DNA from: Desemzia incerta
GTDB taxonomy: Bacteria > Bacillota > Bacilli > Lactobacillales > Carnobacteriaceae
Direction: 5' to 3'
NCBI RefSeq assembly: GCF_900115825.1
Contig: NZ_FOXW01000006.1
Location: forward strand, 62,001-126,000
Length of the DNA: 64,000 nt
The position numbers were made by a program, and so were the translations under genes. Under the pieces are notes generated by a model. That model ran no database searches and had not been told where the DNA came from. It was given only the letters and a program-made list of their open reading frames with translations. Position 1 is the first letter of the stretch. Every line of letters starts with the position of its first letter. Of this stretch, positions 3,995 to 47,878 are shown in pieces.

Positions 3995-4366
3995 ATGTTC
4001 ATTATGTTTGATATCCGTTCATTCAATCAGCAACTGGATTTCAATCAACCTATGACTTGCCCTCATTGCGGTCATTTCGGTCGTTACGAAGTTTTTGTCA
4101 CAGGCAGTAGATTCCGGTTGTTTTTCGTTCCTCTATTTACCTTTGGAAAAAAATACTTGGCCCATACGACTTGCTGTGATTCTTGGTATGAGTTAGACAA
4201 GCAAACAGGAAAAGCGATCCAGAAGAAACAATCGGTGCATATCGAGGAAAGCGATTTAACGCAAATGTTGTCAAAAGGAACCTATACTTCAAAATGCCCT
4301 AATTGCGGACATCCAAATTCTCAAGAAACCAATTTTTGCCCGAATTGCGGTCAGCCGTTATCTTGA
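3995..4366 (+). CDS. Zinc-ribbon protein with two CxxC pairs at each end
   Basis: A 123-residue protein with a zinc ribbon near each end: CPHCGHFG at about residues 22-29, and CPNCGHPN...FCPNCGQ at the C-terminus. The middle contains an FFVPLFTFGKKY segment and a CC pair. Small zinc-ribbon proteins of this form are common in Firmicutes and of unknown function. AAGGAG lies 8 nt before the ATG; a second ATG three codons on is possible. A plausible promoter is TTTACA (3922) with TAAAGT (3945) at 17 bp. A terminator follows directly. Confidence 0.7.
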   Translation: MFIMFDIRSFNQQLDFNQPMTCPHCGHFGRYEVFVTGSRFRLFFVPLFTFGKKYLAHTTCCDSWYELDKQTGKAIQKKQSVHIEESDLTQMLSKGTYTSKCPNCGHPNSQETNFCPNCGQPLS

Positions 4367-4370
4367 TACT

Positions 4371-4412
4371 AAAAAAGTCGCATCAGCTCATGGAGCCTGA
4401 TACGACTTTTTT
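4371..4412 (+). terminator. Terminator after zinc-ribbon gene
   Basis: Stem arms AAAAGTCGCATCAG and CTGATACGACTTTT (one C-T mismatch) are followed by a T-rich run on the plus strand. Confidence 0.85.
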
Positions 4413-4498
4413 TATTGACTGAAAGTCTTTTTCTAACGTACTTTTACTTTCTGTGCACTTATTAAGCAGTGAATATATATTTAAGCAAACAGCATTTT

Positions 4499-5941
4499 TT
4501 AATCCTTATTTCGATAGAATCTTTTTAATTTTTGTACGTCAATTTCATCGATGAAATTTAAGCCAATCACTTCCAAAGCATCACCAGTTTTTATAAACAG
4601 ATTGATGTGTCCAATTTGTTTAGGGAACAGCCATCTCGTTGTTTGTTCAGAAAAGGATTGGACTTTTTGACGTTCGACAAAGGTTTGAACTTTTGAGAAC
4701 CATTCTATGTTTTGGATACATATTCGATGAGCGGTCTGAATCTGATAACCTTGGTGTTGTTCTTCAAGCCAAGAATTCAGCAGCAATATGAACATCACTG
4801 CTACAGCCGCTAATGCCAGCCAATAATTCAGAAATGCCAATCCTGCAGCGATCGGAATAAAGAGCAATTTCCATTTCCAGAAGTACCACAATTTTTTACG
4901 GGATACGAACTTTATTTCAGGACGAGTGAAGTTCCATTCCGGCAGTAATTCCGACAATGTCTCATAGAGCTGATGGTCAGAAATGATCGGCAAGATATAA
5001 AGCTTTTTGACGATTCCGCTTTCCCCTTCTGCTTCTTGCCCGCCTGCCAAAAGCAACTCAACAGTAGAGATCCCTAGTAATTTTCGAACCGGTTGCTGCC
5101 TGATCTTCAGACCTTGGATTTTTTCTACAGGAATCTTTTGGATTTTGCGTTCGAACAATCCACTTTCAATCGTTAACGTCTGATTTGTACGATTGACTTG
5201 AAAGTTATAGTACTGGATAAATGTCCTTAGAAGAGATAACAGCATGACGAAAACCAAACTAACGAATAAAATCGATAATGACGCCAACCATCCTGCTCGC
5301 AGCAAGCTTTCTGCCATTGAGGTAGTGGTAGTTATCCAATTTTCCGGAATAAATTCAGAAATGAAGATAATAACAGCGATCAATGTGGCCATGATACTCA
5401 AATCTGTCAGGGCAAATAAGACAATCTGACTGTTGGTGACTGTGTAGTCTGCAGAGCTTGATTCTTTTTGCATCTCCAGACCTGCTGAATGAATTTCACT
5501 TTCCGGCTGGTCTCCTTGGCGATACTTTTCAATCCATTCCCATACCTCAATGTTTACTGCAGGCATAGAGGCTTCTGCTTGCGTGCTTTCTCCCCCGGCA
5601 GTTTCGATCAAGAGCTGGATCACACCAAATGGTTTGAAGAAAAACCATTGGCGTTGCTTAATTGTTTGGATGCGTTCATAAGGAATGTCAGTTTCTCTCT
5701 TGCGAAAAACACCTCGGTAGAGGATGATTTTTTCAGAAGAAATCTGGTAAGTTTGAGAAAAATATTTCCACAGAGCTTGAATCAGCGACAATAAAACTAT
5801 CGCAGACAAAGCGATCAATCCAAAAAGGGTCATCAATTCTCCATTGAAAACTAATAAAAGAACTGCAAATGACCAACTCTTCAATCCCTTAAATAAATAA
5901 ATGAACACCGCCAAGGGATGAAATCTTTTCCGCTCAGACAT
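4499..5941 (-). CDS. ydbT: PH-domain membrane protein, YdbT-like
   Basis: A 480-residue membrane protein with several hydrophobic segments (about residues 15-55, 165-235 and 355-390) alternating with bacterial PH (DUF304) domains. Repeated motifs such as RETDIPYERIQTIKQRQ and RKIQKIPVEKIQGLKIRQQ are the signature of this family. In B. subtilis the ydbST pair belongs to the SigW envelope-stress regulon and contributes to resistance to a Bacillus bacteriocin. Its start overlaps the end of the upstream ydbS-like gene by 8 bp, so the two are translationally coupled. The stress role here is inferred from homology. Confidence 0.85.
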   Translation of the reverse strand: MSERKRFHPLAVFIYLFKGLKSWSFAVLLLVFNGELMTLFGLIALSAIVLLSLIQALWKYFSQTYQISSEKIILYRGVFRKRETDIPYERIQTIKQRQWFFFKPFGVIQLLIETAGGESTQAEASMPAVNIEVWEWIEKYRQGDQPESEIHSAGLEMQKESSSADYTVTNSQIVLFALTDLSIMATLIAVIIFISEFIPENWITTTTSMAESLLRAGWLASLSILFVSLVFVMLLSLLRTFIQYYNFQVNRTNQTLTIESGLFERKIQKIPVEKIQGLKIRQQPVRKLLGISTVELLLAGGQEAEGESGIVKKLYILPIISDHQLYETLSELLPEWNFTRPEIKFVSRKKLWYFWKWKLLFIPIAAGLAFLNYWLALAAVAVMFILLLNSWLEEQHQGYQIQTAHRICIQNIEWFSKVQTFVERQKVQSFSEQTTRWLFPKQIGHINLFIKTGDALEVIGLNFIDEIDVQKLKRFYRNKD

Positions 5942-12596: not shown

Positions 12597-13862
12597 TTAT
12601 TCTGCACTCTCCTTAATTATTTTTTCAACTGTTAGTGCTGATTTAGGTTTCGGCAGTTTCATCAACCCTGTATAAACTACCGCTGTTCCGACTAGTGCAT
12701 TGAGTGGAGAGATCCCTGGTGCAAATTGAGCTAAAGCTACACCTATAACCCAAGCTAAAAGAGCTGTCCAGTTGATTGGTACAAAAGTTGCTTCTTCAAA
12801 CTTAGTATAGTTGCAGCGTTTTACAAAAAAGTAATCTGCAATAATGATTGCTCCAATTGAAGGGATAGCAGCACTCAGCAAGTTTAAAAATCCGACGAAG
12901 TTATTGTACATCCACATAGCCAAGACGGTTCCTACGATCCCGTTCACTAAAACCCAGAATTTCTTAGAGCTTTTCGTAATATTGGCAAATCCTAATCCAG
13001 AAGCGTAAAGCGCATTATCATTGGTTGTCCAGATATTCAACGCCAGTACCAAGATTGCCGGTATGGTCAGTCCTTGCAAAAATAGAACTTCTGAGATATC
13101 TGAAAGTCCGTAAACCATTGCCCCCACTGCTCCAAATAAGAACATCAGCGAGTTGCCTAAGAAGAAAGCTGTGGAAGTAGCCCCGATAGCAGAACGCGAT
13201 GTTTTTGCAAAGCGGGCAAAGTCAGCTGTCAATGTCCCGCCGCTGATAAATGATCCAATACAGATCGTCAAAGCAGCTGACATGGTGAGGCTTGCTTGCG
13301 GTTCATACTCAAAGAGAGCCGATAAACCACCCATGAATCGGGTTGCTTCGAAAGCGGAATAACTTCCTAAAATCGCAACTAAAGGAACGGCTATAAAACT
13401 TAAGATCACCAGCGATTTCATTCCGTAAAGAGAAGCCAATGTGATCATGGTCCCAAAGACAAAAATCAGTAAATAACTGTTCCAGCCCATTTCTCTTGCG
13501 ATCGGAACGGCGAACATTGCCACACCGACCCCGAACCAACCGACCTGAGTAAAGCCCAATAAGAAAGATGGCAAATGCGAACCTTTTTCACCAAACGAGT
13601 ACTTAGCCAACAAGTGAGTAGATAAACCAGTTTTAGCTGCGATATGCGCCAATGCACCTGTATACATACAGAGTGCCAAATTTCCCAGCAAAATGACGAG
13701 CAAAAATTGTGACAACGTCAAACTCAATCCCAATTGACCTCCTGCTAACATACTGGCTGAGAAAAAGGTAAACCCTAGCATTACCGCCATTGTTTTTGCA
13801 AAAGAATTACGGCTCGATTGCGGTACCGTTTGTAATGAAAACTCTGTGTCGATTTTCTTCAT
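12597..13862 (-). CDS. codB: Cytosine permease, NCS1 family
   Basis: A 421-residue transporter with about twelve membrane segments. The N-terminal region SLQTVPQSSRNSF and the WFGVGV motif are typical of NCS1 cytosine permeases. ATG at 13862 is chosen because GGGAGG lies 7 nt upstream; the longer frame would start within the ribosome binding site. It is directly followed by codA, so cytosine uptake and deamination are one transcription unit. Confidence 0.93.
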   Translation of the reverse strand: MKKIDTEFSLQTVPQSSRNSFAKTMAVMLGFTFFSASMLAGGQLGLSLTLSQFLLVILLGNLALCMYTGALAHIAAKTGLSTHLLAKYSFGEKGSHLPSFLLGFTQVGWFGVGVAMFAVPIAREMGWNSYLLIFVFGTMITLASLYGMKSLVILSFIAVPLVAILGSYSAFEATRFMGGLSALFEYEPQASLTMSAALTICIGSFISGGTLTADFARFAKTSRSAIGATSTAFFLGNSLMFLFGAVGAMVYGLSDISEVLFLQGLTIPAILVLALNIWTTNDNALYASGLGFANITKSSKKFWVLVNGIVGTVLAMWMYNNFVGFLNLLSAAIPSIGAIIIADYFFVKRCNYTKFEEATFVPINWTALLAWVIGVALAQFAPGISPLNALVGTAVVYTGLMKLPKPKSALTVEKIIKESAE

Positions 13863-17397: not shown

Positions 17398-18789
17398 TTA
17401 ATTTTTTTCAACACCAAAGACTTTTATCAGTTCTACCATGTGAGCAATATTTTGGTAAAAATCGGCCAATCTGATATTTTCATTTGGTGCGTGTGCTCCC
17501 GAATAAGCCCAACCTGCCCCTACACCGGCAATCGGTAAATGCAAGTATTTTTCAAATAATTCACTTGGACCTGTACCTGCCATACTCGGAGATACAATGA
17601 CTGGATTTTCATCCCCGTATACTTTTTTAGCTGAGTTTACGACCGTTTCAATAAAAGGATCTTCTAAAGAGGTGCGCTGTGCTCCTTCTGCAGCAACCAT
17701 AGTCAGCGAAATGTCCCCATAGCCATGATCATCTAGATGCTGGCGGAGAGAGTCACGAACATGCTTTGGATTTTGTCCGGGTACAAGTCGACAATCTAAT
17801 TTTGCTTTGGCATTTTTTGGCAGTACGGTTTTGATACCTGGTCCTGTATATCCGCTCGAAAACCCACAAACTGTCATGGTTGGAGAATAAGCTAAAGCTT
17901 CCGCGGGAGTCACATCGGTTCCTTCAGTGATGAACTTTCCTGTTAGACCGTATTGCGCCTTAACTTCCTCTGCCTTGAAAGGTTGATTGGCGGCTGCTTC
18001 CTTATCTTTTTTGGACAAAGGAGCTATTCCATCATAAAATCCTTCAACAACAATCTCATTTTTCTCATTCTTCATGGAAGACAAAGCATGAATCAATCGC
18101 CATGCTGGATTATCCGCAATGGCAGCTATCGAGGAGTGGATATCAATGGCAGCCGTGGTGACTTCTAGATCGAAATACGCAATGCCTTTCATCCCTGCAC
18201 TTACGATATAATTTTCATATTTATCTTTTGACCCCGCTTCCCAGATACAGGCATCAGCTTGAAAGAGATCAGCGTATTTCTCGATATACAAACCTAGATT
18301 TGGACTGCCGATCTCTTCTTCTCCTTCCAAGAGAAACTTCACATTACAAGGGAAACCATCATTTGATTCCTTCAAAATGGATAAAGCATTCAAACGAGCC
18401 ATGAAATTAGCTTTATTATCAGATACACCACGGGCATATAACGTATTGTCGCGAACGGTGGGCTCAAACGGCTCCGTATGCCACTCATCTAAAGGATCTG
18501 CTGGCTGCACATCATAATGGTTGTAGAACAATAGCGTCCGATCGCTATTTCCACTCGAAGAAGCTGGGAAATAACCATAAATGACTGGATGACCACCCAA
18601 GTCATCCAACACCTTAACTTCTCCGCCTGTTTGTTCAATCAGGTCCTTCACATAGGCTACTGTTTCTGGAATTTGCTTGTGTTCTGTGGAAACTGACTCC
18701 AGTCTTAAGTAATCATAAAACTCATCTTTACGAACCTCTGCCATATGTCTAGCTTCTTCTAGTGTTTTTGTATTTTGAGTTACTGTCAT
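17398..18789 (-). CDS. M20 family dipeptidase
   Basis: A 463-residue M20 zinc peptidase. Metal-site motifs FYNHYDVQPAD and LEGEEEIGSPNLG are visible, with the dimerisation lid between. ATG at 18789 is preferred, with AGAGGGG about 8 nt upstream; the longer frame extends into the transporter lipoprotein gene. Its place inside the peptide transporter operon, between the binding protein and the ATPases, suggests that it cleaves the imported peptide in the cytoplasm. Confidence 0.88.
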   Translation of the reverse strand: MTVTQNTKTLEEARHMAEVRKDEFYDYLRLESVSTEHKQIPETVAYVKDLIEQTGGEVKVLDDLGGHPVIYGYFPASSSGNSDRTLLFYNHYDVQPADPLDEWHTEPFEPTVRDNTLYARGVSDNKANFMARLNALSILKESNDGFPCNVKFLLEGEEEIGSPNLGLYIEKYADLFQADACIWEAGSKDKYENYIVSAGMKGIAYFDLEVTTAAIDIHSSIAAIADNPAWRLIHALSSMKNEKNEIVVEGFYDGIAPLSKKDKEAAANQPFKAEEVKAQYGLTGKFITEGTDVTPAEALAYSPTMTVCGFSSGYTGPGIKTVLPKNAKAKLDCRLVPGQNPKHVRDSLRQHLDDHGYGDISLTMVAAEGAQRTSLEDPFIETVVNSAKKVYGDENPVIVSPSMAGTGPSELFEKYLHLPIAGVGAGWAYSGAHAPNENIRLADFYQNIAHMVELIKVFGVEKN

Positions 18790-22822: not shown

Positions 22823-24079
22823 AAGTTAGCCACTTGTAGTTACTCTGTTTTACATTTTAATATCTAGCTATCGAACTGTAATGAGTCCTGTTTGTTAAAA
22901 ATTCACGAATCAAGTGGCCATACGTTCTTGTTGGAATGCTTTCACGAAACAGTCATGTGGTGTTTGATAATCTAAGATTCTTCTAGGATAGTCATTCATC
23001 CATTGTTGAATTCGTAAGCATTGAGCTTCGTTCACATCAGTCATCGGCTTCCCTTTGGGAAGGAAACGGCGAATCAATTTATGCTGGTTCTCGCTTGTCC
23101 CGCGTTCCCATGAAGTATAAGGATGACTAAAATAGACATCCACTACATCTTGCAAGGCTTCGTGCAGTCCTGTGAATTCAGATCCATTGTCGGAGGTTAC
23201 CGTTTTAAACAGGCAGCTAAAGTGTTCATCAGCACGCTCTCGCAATACATGAACTGCCTGGTCAACTGAATGAGCGTCTTTTCCATTCAATTTTAAGATG
23301 ACTTCAAAACGTGTTTGCTTTTCGGCTAACGTCAGTAAAACGGCATCTGATTTCACCTTGTTTCCTACAACAGTATCGATTTCCCAATGGCCGAATGTTT
23401 CTCGAGTTCCGATGATTTCTGGACGCTCGTCTATGGATTTTCCTAATATGCGCTTGTTAAGATTCGATTTATGATTCTGTTTTTTTATTTTGCGAGACAG
23501 CTTTTCGAGCAAGTCTAAGTTCGTTGTTTTCATGATGCCTCGATCAATCCACTGATAAAGAGTGGTGGTGCAAGGAATGATTGAAGGATTGAACAATCCC
23601 TGATTTAAGGCAAAACCAATTACAACATCTGGGGACCACTTTTCATGGATCATCTTGTCATCAGCCCAGTTAGTAAAAGCATCTGTATCGGCCCATTTGG
23701 GCCGTCTACCAGAGTTCAGACGCTCTTTATCGTAGTGAGTTTGTCCTGCGTCAGCGCTATAAACAGAGTCATAATAGTCATACACTTTGCCATTTTGATT
23801 TTGGCGTTTTAATTGTGTAACTGTCCCTCTTTTGATTTCATTATGGATGGTTTGTGGAGCTCGCTCAATAACTCCAGAAATCTGTCGGTTTGAATAGCCT
23901 TCTTTTTTTAGAACCTCTATTTGGCAGCGTTCCGCATAAGAAAGGTGTTTTCCCTTACGTGAATCTATGTTATTCTTAGTTTGCGTCATGTGAATTCATC
24001 CTTGTCTATTGAGAGTTAGTGGTAACTTCAATATAACATGAAATTCACATGGCGTTTTTTAGTTAGCGGTGGCTAACTT
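22823..24079 (-). mobile_element. IS30-family insertion sequence
   Basis: A single transposase gene is framed by terminal inverted repeats. The left end, AAGTTAGCCAC at 22823, matches the right end (24079 read inward) for 11 bp and then partially, 15 of 20 in all. Total length is about 1257 bp, normal for IS30. I do not see a clear target duplication. A second similar sequence (GAAGTTACCACTAACTC) lies internally near 24010-24030. The element sits between helD and the leader of the peptide operon. Confidence 0.75.
22910..23989 (-). CDS. IS30-family transposase
   Basis: A 359-residue DDE transposase. The N-terminal helix-turn-helix has the pattern LSYAERCQIEVLKKEGYSNR. The catalytic core shows GHWEIDTVVG (first Asp), VTSDNGSEFTG (second Asp) and the ERGTSENQHKLIRRFLPKG block with the catalytic Glu, typical of IS30. 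Full length and intact, so the element may be active. Confidence 0.95.
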   Translation of the reverse strand: MTQTKNNIDSRKGKHLSYAERCQIEVLKKEGYSNRQISGVIERAPQTIHNEIKRGTVTQLKRQNQNGKVYDYYDSVYSADAGQTHYDKERLNSGRRPKWADTDAFTNWADDKMIHEKWSPDVVIGFALNQGLFNPSIIPCTTTLYQWIDRGIMKTTNLDLLEKLSRKIKKQNHKSNLNKRILGKSIDERPEIIGTRETFGHWEIDTVVGNKVKSDAVLLTLAEKQTRFEVILKLNGKDAHSVDQAVHVLRERADEHFSCLFKTVTSDNGSEFTGLHEALQDVVDVYFSHPYTSWERGTSENQHKLIRRFLPKGKPMTDVNEAQCLRIQQWMNDYPRRILDYQTPHDCFVKAFQQERMAT

Positions 24080-24131
24080 CATTATATAATCCACCTCCAA
24101 AAATTAGTTCTTTAAGGCACCCATTTAAAAC

Positions 24132-26520: not shown

Positions 26521-26617
26521 CTATTGATCAAATGAGCATCAATTATCGTCTCACTTGATCAATAGACCTATTCTATTAGTCAAGTGAACAATATTTCGAG
26601 CCGTACTTGATTAATAG
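26521..26617. repeat. Palindromic array, 52-bp pitch, two units (family 1)
   Basis: Two inverted-repeat units start at 26521 and 26573, exactly 52 bp apart. Each is a 14-bp arm of type CTATTGATCAAGTG, a 17-nt variable centre and a 14-bp arm of type CACTTGATTAATAG; a 7-nt gap separates the units. Each arm contains a near-palindromic core TTGATCAA. It lies between the start of helD and the terminator of the next gene, both on the minus strand. The same architecture recurs at 32233-32381. Confidence 0.9.
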
Positions 26618-32232: not shown

Positions 32233-32381
32233 CTATTAATCAAGTGGAGAATATTCACTCCTTCACTTGATTAATAGATCGCTTCTATTGATCAAGTGAC
32301 CACTGCCAAATCCCTCACTTGATTAATAGATCACTTCTATTGATCAAGTGGCAATAATTCCAACCTTCACTTGACTAATAG
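32233..32381. repeat. Palindromic array, 52-bp pitch, three units (family 1)
   Basis: Three units start at 32233, 32285 and 32337, exactly 52 bp apart. Each unit is a 14-bp arm (CTATTAATCAAGTG or CTATTGATCAAGTG), a 17-nt centre that differs in every unit, and a 14-bp arm (CACTTGATTAATAG or CACTTGACTAATAG); 7-nt spacers follow. It occupies the gap between convergent tetR and deoC. No T run follows the units, so they are not ordinary terminators. Same family as 26521-26617. Confidence 0.92.
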
Positions 32382-40166: not shown

Positions 40167-40350
40167 TCTGCCACCTCTTTTGTTAAGCGTTTTCAAATTA
40201 TCCTTATACTGAATAATAACATAACAAATCATTTGTATAACTAAAAATCTTAATAAGTTTTTTTGAGTTCCAATAGTTCTTTGGCCCTACCTGCTGCGGT
40301 ATAATAGAAAAAACAGTTCCCAAAAAATAAACCTAAGGATGGTTCTTGAG

Positions 40351-41187
40351 ATGAAGCTAACGCAAGACGAAATACTCAATGCTATTTATAACCTGATCCT
40401 TAATCCTGGAACTCGAGACTGGGAGCGGTCTTTACTCTTGGAAGCCAGAAATGCCTTAGAGAACGGTGCGAATTTTGATACTCAGCTTTCGAAATTGGAA
40501 GCTGACTTGCGTCCATTGGCTCTCAGAAATAATTTAACACCTGACGTGACCGATTTTTATCATCACATTACGGATCAGACTACTTCTGATACTCCATTTG
40601 ATTTCAACAAGCACTCTCTTGACGATCCCGTTCATCAAGACTCTGCGATATTTGCTGGCGGTTGTTTTTGGTGTATGGTGGAACCATTTGAAAACCGGAA
40701 TGGAATCATTTCAGTTCTATCCGGCTACACTGGCGGAAAGGTAGACCATCCGACTTATGACCAAGTGAGCGGTCAGTATACAGGTCACGTAGAAGCTGTT
40801 GAGATCATATTTGATACACGGATCATTCAATACGCTGATTTAGTGGAGCTTTACTGGCAATTGACCGATCCGACTGATGCATCTGGTCAGTTTCAAGATC
40901 GAGGCAATCAGTATCACCCCATCATTTTTGTAAAAGACGAGCAGCAGCGTCAAATCGCTGAGGCTTCCAAACAACGATTAGCTGATTCAGGCAAATACAC
41001 GAAACCGATCGTTACCTCTATTGAACCTGCAACTGCATTTTGGCCGGCAGAAAACTACCATCAGCAGTTCTATCAAAAGAATCCTGAACGGTATAAAAGA
41101 ATCGAGCGATCACGCCGCCAACTCAAGGCTTATCAAGCTCTGCAAAGGAAACTTAGAGCTCCATTTCAAAAATCTAAACGCGATTAG
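40351..41187 (+). CDS. msrA: MsrA with an N-terminal bacteriocin-immunity-like domain
   Basis: A 278-residue protein. Residues about 1-75 form a helical domain ([15 protein letters not shown], then [20 protein letters not shown]) resembling the enterocin A immunity family found in lactic acid bacteria. Residues about 95-250 are peptide-methionine (S)-S-oxide reductase with catalytic GGCFWC and GYTGG. MsrA repairs oxidised methionine. The reason for the fusion is unknown. The ATG at 40351 is preferred because AAGGA is placed 11 nt upstream; the ATG at 40339 abuts it. A YdeI-like gene follows after 17 bp. Confidence 0.87.
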
Positions 41188-41861: not shown

Positions 41862-42512
41862 TTACAATTCGCTGACTGCTTCTTCAACCGTCTTGTCTCC
41901 AGCCAGAACTTCAAATTCTTTACGAAGGGTATTGTCATTTTTGAGTACAGAAATCAACGTGCGTGCCACATCTTGACGAGGAACTTCATTAATTTCTTGC
42001 CCCATGCCTACTTTGATTTGATCCGTACCATCTGTATCGACTAACATCCCTGGATGCACGATCGTCCAGTCTAATTGCGTACGGTTTTTCAACCATTCAT
42101 CCGCATAATTTTTTGCAATGGTGTAAATTTGCAGATCGTGTTCTTGTGACATGGCTTCGCGACCTGTACGGAACGTACTCACCATAACAAAACGTTTCAC
42201 ACCCGCTTGTTCTGCAGCTGTCATAGCTTTTACAGCCCCGTCTAGGTCAATCAAAATCGTTTTATCCAGTCCGCTTCCGCCGGCTCCTGCACTGAAAATA
42301 ACCGCGTCGGTACCTTTCATCGCTTCAGCTAATTCATCTATTGAGTTTTTGACCAAGTCCAAAAGAACTGTGTCTATTCCTCTTTCTTCGAAGAAACCTG
42401 CTTGTTCTGCTTTACGTATCATAGCCTTTTCGTCGATTGCACTGTCATCTTTTACAAAGTCGGCAAAATGACGAGCTACTTTTCCATTGGCACCTACTAC
42501 AAATACTTTCAT
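41862..42512 (-). CDS. NAD(P)-binding oxidoreductase, YwnB/YhfK type atypical SDR
   Basis: A 216-residue Rossmann protein starting MKVFVVGANGKVARHF, the dinucleotide loop of atypical SDRs, followed by DAVIFSAGAGGSG and FVMVSTFRTGRE. Members act as NAD(P)H-dependent reductases or redox sensors; substrate unknown. AAGGGG lies before the ATG. Monocistronic. Confidence 0.82.
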   Translation of the reverse strand: MKVFVVGANGKVARHFADFVKDDSAIDEKAMIRKAEQAGFFEERGIDTVLLDLVKNSIDELAEAMKGTDAVIFSAGAGGSGLDKTILIDLDGAVKAMTAAEQAGVKRFVMVSTFRTGREAMSQEHDLQIYTIAKNYADEWLKNRTQLDWTIVHPGMLVDTDGTDQIKVGMGQEINEVPRQDVARTLISVLKNDNTLRKEFEVLAGDKTVEEAVSEL

Positions 42513-42717: not shown

Positions 42718-42857
42718 CGGCCATGAGCAACTATTTTTTCTCTCTCATGGCCGTCTTTGTTTCACTATTCAGCCATGAGGAGCCAAAATACAGTACTCAT
42801 GGCTTATGTAACCCCTTTTTTCGGCCATGAGATCCTTTTTCTTGAGCACCATGGCCG
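42718..42857. repeat. Palindromic array, 26/52-bp pitch, three units (family 2)
   Basis: Six 10-bp sites alternate in orientation at exact 26-bp steps: CGGCCATGAG at 42718, CTCATGGCCG at 42744, CAGCCATGAG at 42770, CTCATGGCTT at 42796, CGGCCATGAG at 42822 and ACCATGGCCG at 42848. The unit pitch is 52 bp, as in the two family 1 arrays, but the sequence is unrelated. It occupies the gap between the SDR and glucosidase genes. No T runs suited to termination follow most units. The rest of the 42513-43018 gap has a terminator and no gene. Confidence 0.92.
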
Positions 42858-42897: not shown

Positions 42898-42934
42898 TAA
42901 AAAAGGAATGCAAATCAGATTTGCATTCCTTTTT
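42898..42934. terminator. Terminator after the GH1 gene region
   Basis: Arms AAAAGGAATGCAAA and TTTGCATTCCTTTT around TCAGA; A and T runs on both sides. It lies about 85 bp beyond the glucosidase stop on the minus strand. Confidence 0.8.
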
Positions 42935-43018: not shown

Positions 43019-44458
<1,440 letters not shown>

Positions 44459-45590: not shown

Positions 45591-45823
45591 ACTTAAAAAC
45601 CAGCTAACTCTTTTTATTCGTTTAGTTTGCTACTATAGGTTTGATTTTTCTAGCTACTACAATAATATAGCACATAAAACTTATATGAGAAATCGTTTTC
45701 AAAAATAGTTGTTGTGCTTAATATTTACAAAATTATAATTTCTTTATCTTAAAATAACCGACTCCTGTTTAATCTTAAGATTGAACTTATTTCTATTGGT
45801 CACTTTCGTTTTCTGCCCGCTCC

Positions 45824-45887
45824 TTTGCGTTCCCTATTTCCTAGATTATTTGAAAAAAGGGAACGCAAATTCAAATTACGTTCCCTT
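45824..45887. repeat. Overlapping inverted repeats in a gene gap
   Basis: TTTGCGTTCCCT (45824-45835) pairs with AGGGAACGCAAA (45858-45869), which can also pair with the following ACGTTCCCTT (45878-45887). Two alternative hairpins share the middle arm. The surrounding gap 45591-45904 has no gene. Confidence 0.6.
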
Positions 45888-45904
45888 AATGGTGAGTTCA
45901 CTCC

Positions 45905-45940
45905 GAAAAAGACACGCAAACACAATTTGCGTGTCTTTTT
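45905..45940. terminator. Terminator of the P-type ATPase gene
   Basis: GACACGCAAA and TTTGCGTGTC arms flanked by A5 and T5, usable in both directions. It lies 16 bp beyond the ATPase stop. Confidence 0.85.
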
Positions 45941-45955
45941 AAGCGTCAAATATCA

Positions 45956-47878
45956 TTAAAGGGTACGCAAAGGGGTTTTTACTACTTCATTTGAGCTGGA
46001 AGTGGTGTAACCAGACCGTCTTCTATTGCCGTTCAGTTGATATCTCAACAATCGCATGCCGTTAAAGATAACGACTAAGATACTGCCCTCGTGCACCAAC
46101 ATTCCGATCGACATATTCATCCATTCACTGAAAAAGACGCTGGCCATTAAGACTGCGACCACTCCAACTGCGATAATGATGTTTTGTTTCATATTCCGCG
46201 CAGTAGCTTTCGTCAACCCCAACGCATGAGGCAAGCGGCTGAAGTCAGAGTTCATTAAGACTACATCCGACGTCTCGATTGCTACGTCTGTCCCTTTCCC
46301 CATCGCAATTCCGATATCGGCTAAAGCTAAAGATGGACTATCGTTGACCCCGTCACCGACAAACGCGACGATTTGCCCTTGCTGCTGTAATTCTGCGATG
46401 TAAGCTGCTTTATCTTCCGGGAGCATATTTCCATGTGCTTCGGTCAACTCTAACTCGCGAGCTACTACATCCACCGTTCCTTGGTTGTCTCCTGAAAGAA
46501 CGATTAGATTTTTCACGCCTAGCTGCTTCAACTCTTCTAAATCCTTTTTGACTCCTACGCGAACCTGATCGCGAATCCCCATCAGAATCTTCAATTCGCC
46601 ATCGACCGCTGTCAACACCAGCGAATTGCCGTTTTTTCCAAATCGCCTGATATCTGCTTGTGCTTTTTGATCCATGAGCACGTGTTCTTGTTCCATCAAT
46701 GCTGCATTCCCAACCGCTACTCGGTGACCGTTCACTTGAGCTGTGATACCGCCGCCTTTAACAACTTTTGTATCTTCTACTATCGAAAAAGTCGTTTCTC
46801 CTATTTCCTGCAGAACGGCTTTTGCGAGCGGATGATCGGATTCCCGTTCTACACTGGCTAAATACCCAAGAACTTCCTCTGCCTGACCGTCGTAAAATTC
46901 CATTTCTGCCACAGCGGGGTTCCCTTGTGTCAACGTGCCCGTCTTATCAAATACAATCGTATCCACTCGGCTGAAGTCATGGATGACTTCACTTCCTTTG
47001 AGAAGAACTCCATTGCGCGCACCATTCCCAATGCCTGCAACATTAGAAACAGGCACCCCGATGACTAAAGCCCCAGGACAGCCTAGTACCAAGATCGTGA
47101 TCGCCAATTCGATATCTTGGCTGAACAGCCACACTGCAAAGGAAAGCACCAATACCGCCGGCGTATAGTATTTGGAAAAGCGATCGATAAAACGTTCCGC
47201 TTCCGACTTAGAATCTTGTGCTTCTTCCACCAGCTCAATGATTTTCCCAAATGTCGTATCCTCGCCCACTCGATCGGCGCGAATTTGTAAAGTGCCGTTT
47301 TCTAAAATCGTTCCGGCATACACTTCAGCACCCGCCGTCTTGTTCACCGGCACCGATTCGCCCGTGATACTAGCCTCATTGATGTGGCCTTCTCCTGACA
47401 AGACGGTGCCATCTACTGGAACTTTAGCTCCCGTTTTGACAAGTAGAATATCTCCTTCATCAACGGCATCTACCTCTACTTCTTCAAATGCTCCATCTTC
47501 CATTTGGCGCAGAGCACTTTCTGGTGCCATTTCCGTCAGCTCTTTGATCGCCGAACGAGTCTGATTCAATGTTCGCTGTTCCAAAAAATGCCCGAACAAA
47601 AATAAAAAGGTCACGATAGCTGATTCTTCATAGTTTTGGATCAAGAAAGCCCCAATGACCGCAATAGTGACCAAAACATCGATGCTGACCACTTTCACTT
47701 TCAACGCTTGAACGGCTTGAATAGCAATCGGCGCAACTCCTAGAATAGATGCCACGATCAATGCTCCTTCAGAAACCCACACATTTTTTAACACAAAGTG
47801 GCTGAAGAATCCAATGATGATCAACATTCCACTGATCCAAGTAATCTTACTTTTCTTACTTAATACATACTGTTGCAT
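45956..47878 (-). CDS. Heavy-metal P-type ATPase (P1B-like) with CPG motif
   Basis: A 640-residue metal pump. The phosphorylation motif DKTGTLT is at Asp311, with TGES and GDGVNDSPSLA in place. The transmembrane metal motif is Cys267-Pro268-Gly269, not the usual CPC, SPC or TPC. The N-terminal HMA domain is missing; a separate HMA protein is encoded upstream at 48346. The metal is uncertain (Zn, Cd, Fe and Co are candidates). GGAGGGG precedes the ATG. It has its own promoter with an FNR-type box. Confidence 0.88.
   Translation of the reverse strand: MQQYVLSKKSKITWISGMLIIIGFFSHFVLKNVWVSEGALIVASILGVAPIAIQAVQALKVKVVSIDVLVTIAVIGAFLIQNYEESAIVTFLFLFGHFLEQRTLNQTRSAIKELTEMAPESALRQMEDGAFEEVEVDAVDEGDILLVKTGAKVPVDGTVLSGEGHINEASITGESVPVNKTAGAEVYAGTILENGTLQIRADRVGEDTTFGKIIELVEEAQDSKSEAERFIDRFSKYYTPAVLVLSFAVWLFSQDIELAITILVLGCPGALVIGVPVSNVAGIGNGARNGVLLKGSEVIHDFSRVDTIVFDKTGTLTQGNPAVAEMEFYDGQAEEVLGYLASVERESDHPLAKAVLQEIGETTFSIVEDTKVVKGGGITAQVNGHRVAVGNAALMEQEHVLMDQKAQADIRRFGKNGNSLVLTAVDGELKILMGIRDQVRVGVKKDLEELKQLGVKNLIVLSGDNQGTVDVVARELELTEAHGNMLPEDKAAYIAELQQQGQIVAFVGDGVNDSPSLALADIGIAMGKGTDVAIETSDVVLMNSDFSRLPHALGLTKATARNMKQNIIIAVGVVAVLMASVFFSEWMNMSIGMLVHEGSILVVIFNGMRLLRYQLNGNRRRSGYTTSSSNEVVKTPLRTL

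Follow-up and report, generated by a model that had tools for sequence, protein, structure and literature searches.

A common 51-52 bp pitch in intergenic arrays of alternating half-sites with unrelated sequences in Desemzia incerta and distant Firmicutes

The small repeats BOX, RUP and EFAR (the last from Enterococcus faecalis) consist of different modules or of single palindromes, and to our knowledge none of them presents a constant lattice of alternating half-sites at 51-52 bp. The nearest known architecture is that of the BIMEs, to which DNA gyrase and IHF bind in E. coli (PMC2817692), while REP sequences are defined as hairpin-forming palindromes of 20-40 bp with a GTAG or CGTC tag at one end (PMC3733652). 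A search of the open-access literature returned no description of a class of alternating half-sites at 51-52 bp. Here we report on arrays of this kind in the 2.33-Mb genome of Desemzia incerta, including a 64-kb stretch (C9:62001-126000) that is referred to throughout as the window.

The window harbors four such arrays, two of them belonging to the T family of half-sites, one to the G family and one to the A family (Table 1); the last of these, the fourth array of the window, was absent from the first-pass annotation. Direct reading of the sequence in the G array yields the half-sites CGGCCATGAG at 42718, CTCATGGCCG at 42744, CAGCCATGAG at 42770, CTCATGGCTT at 42796, CGGCCATGAG at 42822 and ACCATGGCCG at 42848, so that every step measures 26 bp and the orientation flips each time. 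Three of the six sites are perfect copies of CGGCCATGAG in one orientation or the other, and the remaining three differ from it by one or two mismatches. The earlier description of this array as six alternating 10-bp sites at 26-bp steps, free of slippage, is thus borne out at the same positions, and a repeat search of the window recovers it as a 40-bp family with spacings of 52 and 52. The array lies past the 3' end of a glycosyl hydrolase gene and upstream of an NAD(P)H-binding protein gene, and a terminator-like hairpin, similar to an A-family hairpin, sits between the end of the hydrolase gene and the array. An Rfam search of the window gave no match on any array.

Table 1. Arrays and neighboring features in the window, and arrays located elsewhere in Desemzia incerta and in other genomes
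Feature	Location	Strand	Description
T-family array	26521..26617		Four half-sites spaced 31/21/31 (two units of 52 bp)
T-family array	32233..32381		Six half-sites spaced 31/21 (three units of 52 bp)
NAD(P)H-binding protein gene (PF13460)	41862..42512	-	Flanks G array; array upstream of gene
G-family array	42718..42857		Six 10-bp half-sites, orientation alternating, three 52-bp units
Terminator-like hairpin	42900..42934		17-nt perfect arms, 1-nt loop, A and T runs
Glycosyl hydrolase family 1 (GH1) gene	43019..44446	-	Flanks G array
A-family array	45823..45972		GGAACGCAAAT half-sites in both orientations, six in all; pitch 51, spacing 37/14
Duplicated G arrays	L150:952-1891; L150:11286-11880; L151:4496-5126; L152:598-1389
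TTTGGYAGC arrays, STD2_184	L103:3050-3268; L237:15527-16096; L239:1044-1362; L247:18662-19528; L250:11664-12826
G049:C1 (L331), three arm sequences at 51 bp and 82-bp tandem repeat	1905-2120, 4250-4880, 18150-18280; 12990-13200

Elsewhere in the window, the Rfam search found only a PyrR binding site (RF00515; 13898-14042, minus strand), with a score barely above the gathering threshold. A single ORF (40339-41187) combines an enterocin A immunity-like domain (PF08951) with a peptide methionine sulfoxide reductase (PF01625), which may reflect a misplaced start or a fusion. Finally, about 100 bp at 24000-24107 are 88-100% identical to plasmids of Enterococcus, Staphylococcus and Carnobacterium, overlap an IS30 transposase feature in some of them, and are probably an IS remnant.

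The first-pass annotation had taken the use of one pitch by two unrelated sequences as the sign of a class of elements, a proposal that depends on palindrome spacings showing an excess at 52 bp. A blind lag scan, which counts direct 10-mer repeats enclosing an inverted copy and takes shuffled DNA as a control, was applied to 464 kb (20% of the genome, composed of 20 stretches and the window), and in this sample the excess is overwhelming. Lag 52 gathers 103 matches and lag 51 another 11 (114 together), and the double lag of 102-104 bp gathers 118, against three or fewer at nearly all remaining lags (the exception being lag 124, with 7) and 0-1 in shuffled DNA. Over the whole genome, the paired G pattern GCCATGAG-N16-CTCATGGC has 85 occurrences when as many as three mismatches are allowed, while its reversed control has 3, and the paired CTATTRATCAAGTG pattern of the T family occurs 25 times, against 0 in the control.

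Inspection of the places singled out by the blind scan revealed three families (A, B and C) beyond G and T, and the D. incerta genome holds at least five families of arms with unrelated sequences (G, GGCCATGAG; T, CTATTRRTCAAGTG; A, GGAACGCAAAT; B, TCTACTTGATA; C, CTCACTCACAAG). All of them present a pitch of 51-52 bp, as the first-pass annotation had noted for two families, but the sharing stops at the pitch, since each family divides its unit differently: the split is about 25/27 for G, 31/21 for T, 14/37 for A, 36/16 for B and 33/19 for C. The dyad axes lie 26 bp apart in all families as an automatic consequence of an alternating array. Elements mostly span about 140-200 bp, with half-sites of some 10-14 bp and, in G and T, loops of 16-17 nt; there are mostly six half-sites per array in G and in A, two, four or six in T and up to about 19 in B. 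At several places, whole G arrays have been tandemly duplicated three or four times together with some 90-120 bp of flank (Table 1), hinting at local recombination.

These local duplicates reveal where the constraint falls. Their arms differ at 28 of 808 positions (3.5%), as opposed to 161 of 1254 (12.8%) for loops and linkers (p=3e-14, with pairs of duplicated arrays that are not fully independent), and indels are almost absent, gaps amounting to about 0.2% of columns. Part of this arm conservation could stem from gene conversion between copies. Local duplicates excepted, loop similarity between separate G arrays is at chance level, and the neighboring units of most G and T arrays have common arms and differing loops, the centers of which are A/T-rich in register. 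Short conserved repeats separated by unrelated intervals of near-constant length are also found in CRISPR arrays, and the variable 16-17 bp loops might accordingly be regarded as acquired spacers. However, CRISPR repeats are direct and keep one orientation, whereas orientation alternates here in every family; the sites are only 10-14 bp long and the arrays are short, mostly of three units, and scattered over the genome. Acquired spacers would likewise sit poorly with the A/T-rich register of the loop centers and with duplicated arrays whose loops differ by point substitutions, and we find a CRISPR-like origin hardly credible.

The two arms of a unit, in turn, appear to evolve separately. When arms are shuffled between units (71 of G and 24 of T), the real partners prove to pair no better than the shuffled ones at any arm column. 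The lack of co-variation implies that each half-site mutates alone and that hairpin pairing is not the selected feature in G and T, for which a selected RNA hairpin can be rejected; independent arms are expected of protein half-sites, unlike those of a selected hairpin or cruciform. The first-pass annotation had suggested that the elements might be read either by structure or by a family of related proteins with different specificities and, for G and T, these results favor the proteins. The close hairpins of family A do present paired changes, located in the outer stem, and carry A and T runs on either side, although the co-variation statistics are inflated because many of the sequences are related copies. 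A units may thus double as bidirectional terminators, and RNA or cruciform structure may matter for this family.

All 27 arrays examined are intergenic. They are enriched between convergent genes (12 of 26; among 151 comparable gaps, 22 are convergent; p=0.0006) and fewer between divergent ones (3 of 26, against 54 of 151; p=0.013), and the order gene, terminator, array is observed at 19 of 26 resolved gene ends, including 11 of 11 for G, all these counts being approximate because genes were called by a simple longest-ORF rule and terminators by a simple hairpin rule. Some T and A arrays precede terminators or fall inside them. The clustering of arrays at gene 3' ends, taken together with the paired changes and A/T runs of the A-family hairpins, invites the explanation that they are RNA elements, that is, tandem hairpins in 3' untranslated regions working as terminators or as mRNA stabilisers. 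Family A does resemble intrinsic (bidirectional) terminators in having hairpins at gene ends with A and T runs flanking the stem, and the paired stem changes and T run typical of such terminators are largely present in it. In G and T they are absent: the loops are of 16-17 nt, there is no T run, the arms do not co-vary and, in all resolved cases, the G arrays lie past a separate terminator. Moreover, RNA hairpins do not require an exact pitch of 51-52 bp or loops nearly devoid of indels, and the arrays lack any Rfam match, which makes the RNA explanation improbable.

The genes flanking the examined arrays are ordinary, and no cognate protein was identified. The idea of a special gene beside the longest or the divergent arrays was discarded, their neighbors being tRNA ligase, MFS, GNAT, UvdE, ABC and DivIC genes.

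The distribution of the families across relatives is patchy. Matches to G and T are not above chance in 59 relatives, and a viral link was rejected, as the single exact G match present in each of 15 viral contigs is taken as chance and T has none. Family A comprises 14 paired units in D. incerta, 48 in its sister Desemzia sp. RIT 804 and 0 in 18 others, while family B, with 31 units in D. incerta, has 1 match in the sister. At 18 of 20 A loci read in the sister, six half-sites are spaced 37,14,37,14,37, with a pitch of 51 bp; of the remaining two, one has five sites that can be detected, all in that register, and the other has four. Twelve of these loci are near-copies (about 78-89% identical) of an element of about 195 bp, set in unrelated flanks and in both orientations, indicating that the A array spreads as a unit. 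This dispersal and the patchy, species-specific distribution of the families would both be accounted for by the main rival explanation, according to which the arrays are purely selfish, non-autonomous mobile elements (MITE-like) whose half-sites are recognized in trans by a transposase or a recombinase, with no host role. Nevertheless, the arms and pitch of G and T persist although their loops are at chance similarity, whereas dead copies would decay evenly, and visual inspection of the sister A copies where their homology ends revealed neither terminal inverted repeats nor target duplications. A recent copy-and-paste of G arrays was likewise rejected, given that the loops of separate arrays retain no residual similarity. 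Nor does the genome as a whole contain any match to the Y1/RAYT transposase (Y1_Tnp, PF01797), for which a control search was positive in E. coli, and the link to IS200-like proteins contemplated in the first-pass annotation is therefore not supported. Some species with REP sequences also lack RAYT. Overall, we consider a purely selfish nature unlikely, albeit a serious contender.

The same pitch reappears in distant genomes. The Lachnospiraceae MAG STD2_184 carries an alternating array at 51 bp (L103), and its TTTGGYAGC arrays maintain a pitch of exactly 51 bp over up to about 23 units, with some 273 units in this genome, whereas 119 further genomes from the same family have 0-2. A second family in STD2_184, TTGGGTAAG, presents a pitch of 83 bp (30+53) and is found in L238, L243, L247, L250 and L253. 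Among 20 genomes sampled across the Lactobacillales, one (G049, from another family of the order) holds a GGGTAACAACT array at 51 bp; TTTTCASTT arrays of two or three units, spaced exactly 51 bp and with unrelated loops, are present there at several loci and total 20 units (control, 2). In all, four genomes contain some ten families that are unrelated in sequence and have a pitch of 51-52 bp. Families A, B and C in D. incerta and the unrelated families at 51 bp in other genomes lend support to a class of elements with one pitch across sequence families. Further sampled genomes present ordinary tandem repeats with scattered periods. It could be argued that the arrays are themselves ordinary minisatellites, with units born of tandem duplication and a common pitch by coincidence, as the similar loops of adjacent units in the long B and Lachnospiraceae arrays and the local duplication of whole G arrays might suggest. 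Yet adjacent units in most G and T arrays combine common arms with differing loops, and the agreement of so many unrelated families on one pitch stands against the scattered periods of ordinary tandem repeats, so that such a coincidence seems very improbable.

Matches at lags 51-52 in L107, L184 and L177 seemed due to chance upon inspection. Enterococcus phoeniculicola presents an intergenic 51-bp tandem repeat past a terminator (L046:8330-8620) with weak inverted arms, and G036 presents CTGCTTAAG three times at exactly 51 bp (L326:12660-12800) with weak intervening inverted copies; both are suggestive and are uncounted among the families. Intergenic tandem repeats with internal palindromes were also observed at periods of 122 bp in G004 (L164:3150-4000) and 110 bp in Enterococcus larvae (L268:1700-2150).

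Half-sites and spacing are conserved, loops are free to change, arms mutate independently and the arrays mostly occupy putatively untranscribed positions; together, these features suggest that protein dimers are arrayed along the DNA. With 10.2-10.4 bp to each turn, 51-52 bp correspond to five helical turns and 83 bp to eight, a geometry that would place equivalent half-sites on one face of the helix. We thus envisage the arrays as BIME-like interspersed extragenic elements acting as helically phased protein-binding arrays, a reading that we judge to have an even chance of being correct. Each sequence family would be bound by its own DNA-binding protein under a geometry common to all, and the protein would occupy adjacent dimer sites, typically three, in a cooperative manner along one helix face. 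Lying mostly in putatively untranscribed gaps directly past terminators, often between convergent genes, a bound array could form a boundary, topological or transcriptional, at the ends of genes, a role postulated by analogy with BIMEs, for which it has also been proposed. The elements would spread as units, as observed in the sister species for family A, and also through local duplication in tandem, after which the loops would drift while half-sites and spacing would be retained.

The recurrence of the same spacing across unrelated sequences points to an undescribed DNA-binding architecture. We advance more tentatively, as possible but on balance doubtful, that gene ends in Firmicutes only distantly related to one another are marked by a fast-evolving family of DNA-binding proteins whose geometry is fixed and whose specificity changes. 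Dimers would then be laid on a five-turn repeat of 51-52 bp or on an eight-turn variant of 82-83 bp, the architecture being kept and the sequences being species-specific. Repeat families are normally defined by their sequence; here the sequence is swapped and the geometry stays constant. Should a single protein family impose the 51-52 bp pitch on unrelated bacteria, elements with no link visible to sequence searches would fall into one class, which could be found by autocorrelation. The function of species-specific intergenic repeats, a long-standing question, would then become testable.

With respect to known systems, the arrays are small, dispersed, intergenic and species-specific, like MITEs and the small repeats of Gram-positive bacteria such as pneumococcal BOX and RUP (PMC3049150), and family A spreads in the sister species as MITEs do. 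Unlike in MITEs, the loops of separate G arrays are unrelated. No terminal inverted repeats or target duplications were apparent by eye in the A copies. The resemblance to REP/BIME elements, especially BIME-2 (PMC2817692), extends to the extragenic location, the many dispersed copies and the tandem units with regularly spaced, alternating palindromic sites. BIMEs bind protein, and the Desemzia arrays would be expected to do so. On the other hand, G and T have arms of 10-14 bp and loops of 16-17 nt in place of a selected REP hairpin, no conserved GTAG or CGTC tag appears in the columns flanking their arms, and the genome lacks a RAYT gene; on these two features, tag or selected hairpin and RAYT gene, the arrays are not full members of the BIMEs. 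They also differ in that most G and A arrays comprise exactly three units. We file them as a variant of interspersed extragenic palindromic elements, the new part of which is a pitch of 51-52 bp common to unrelated sequences both within and between species.
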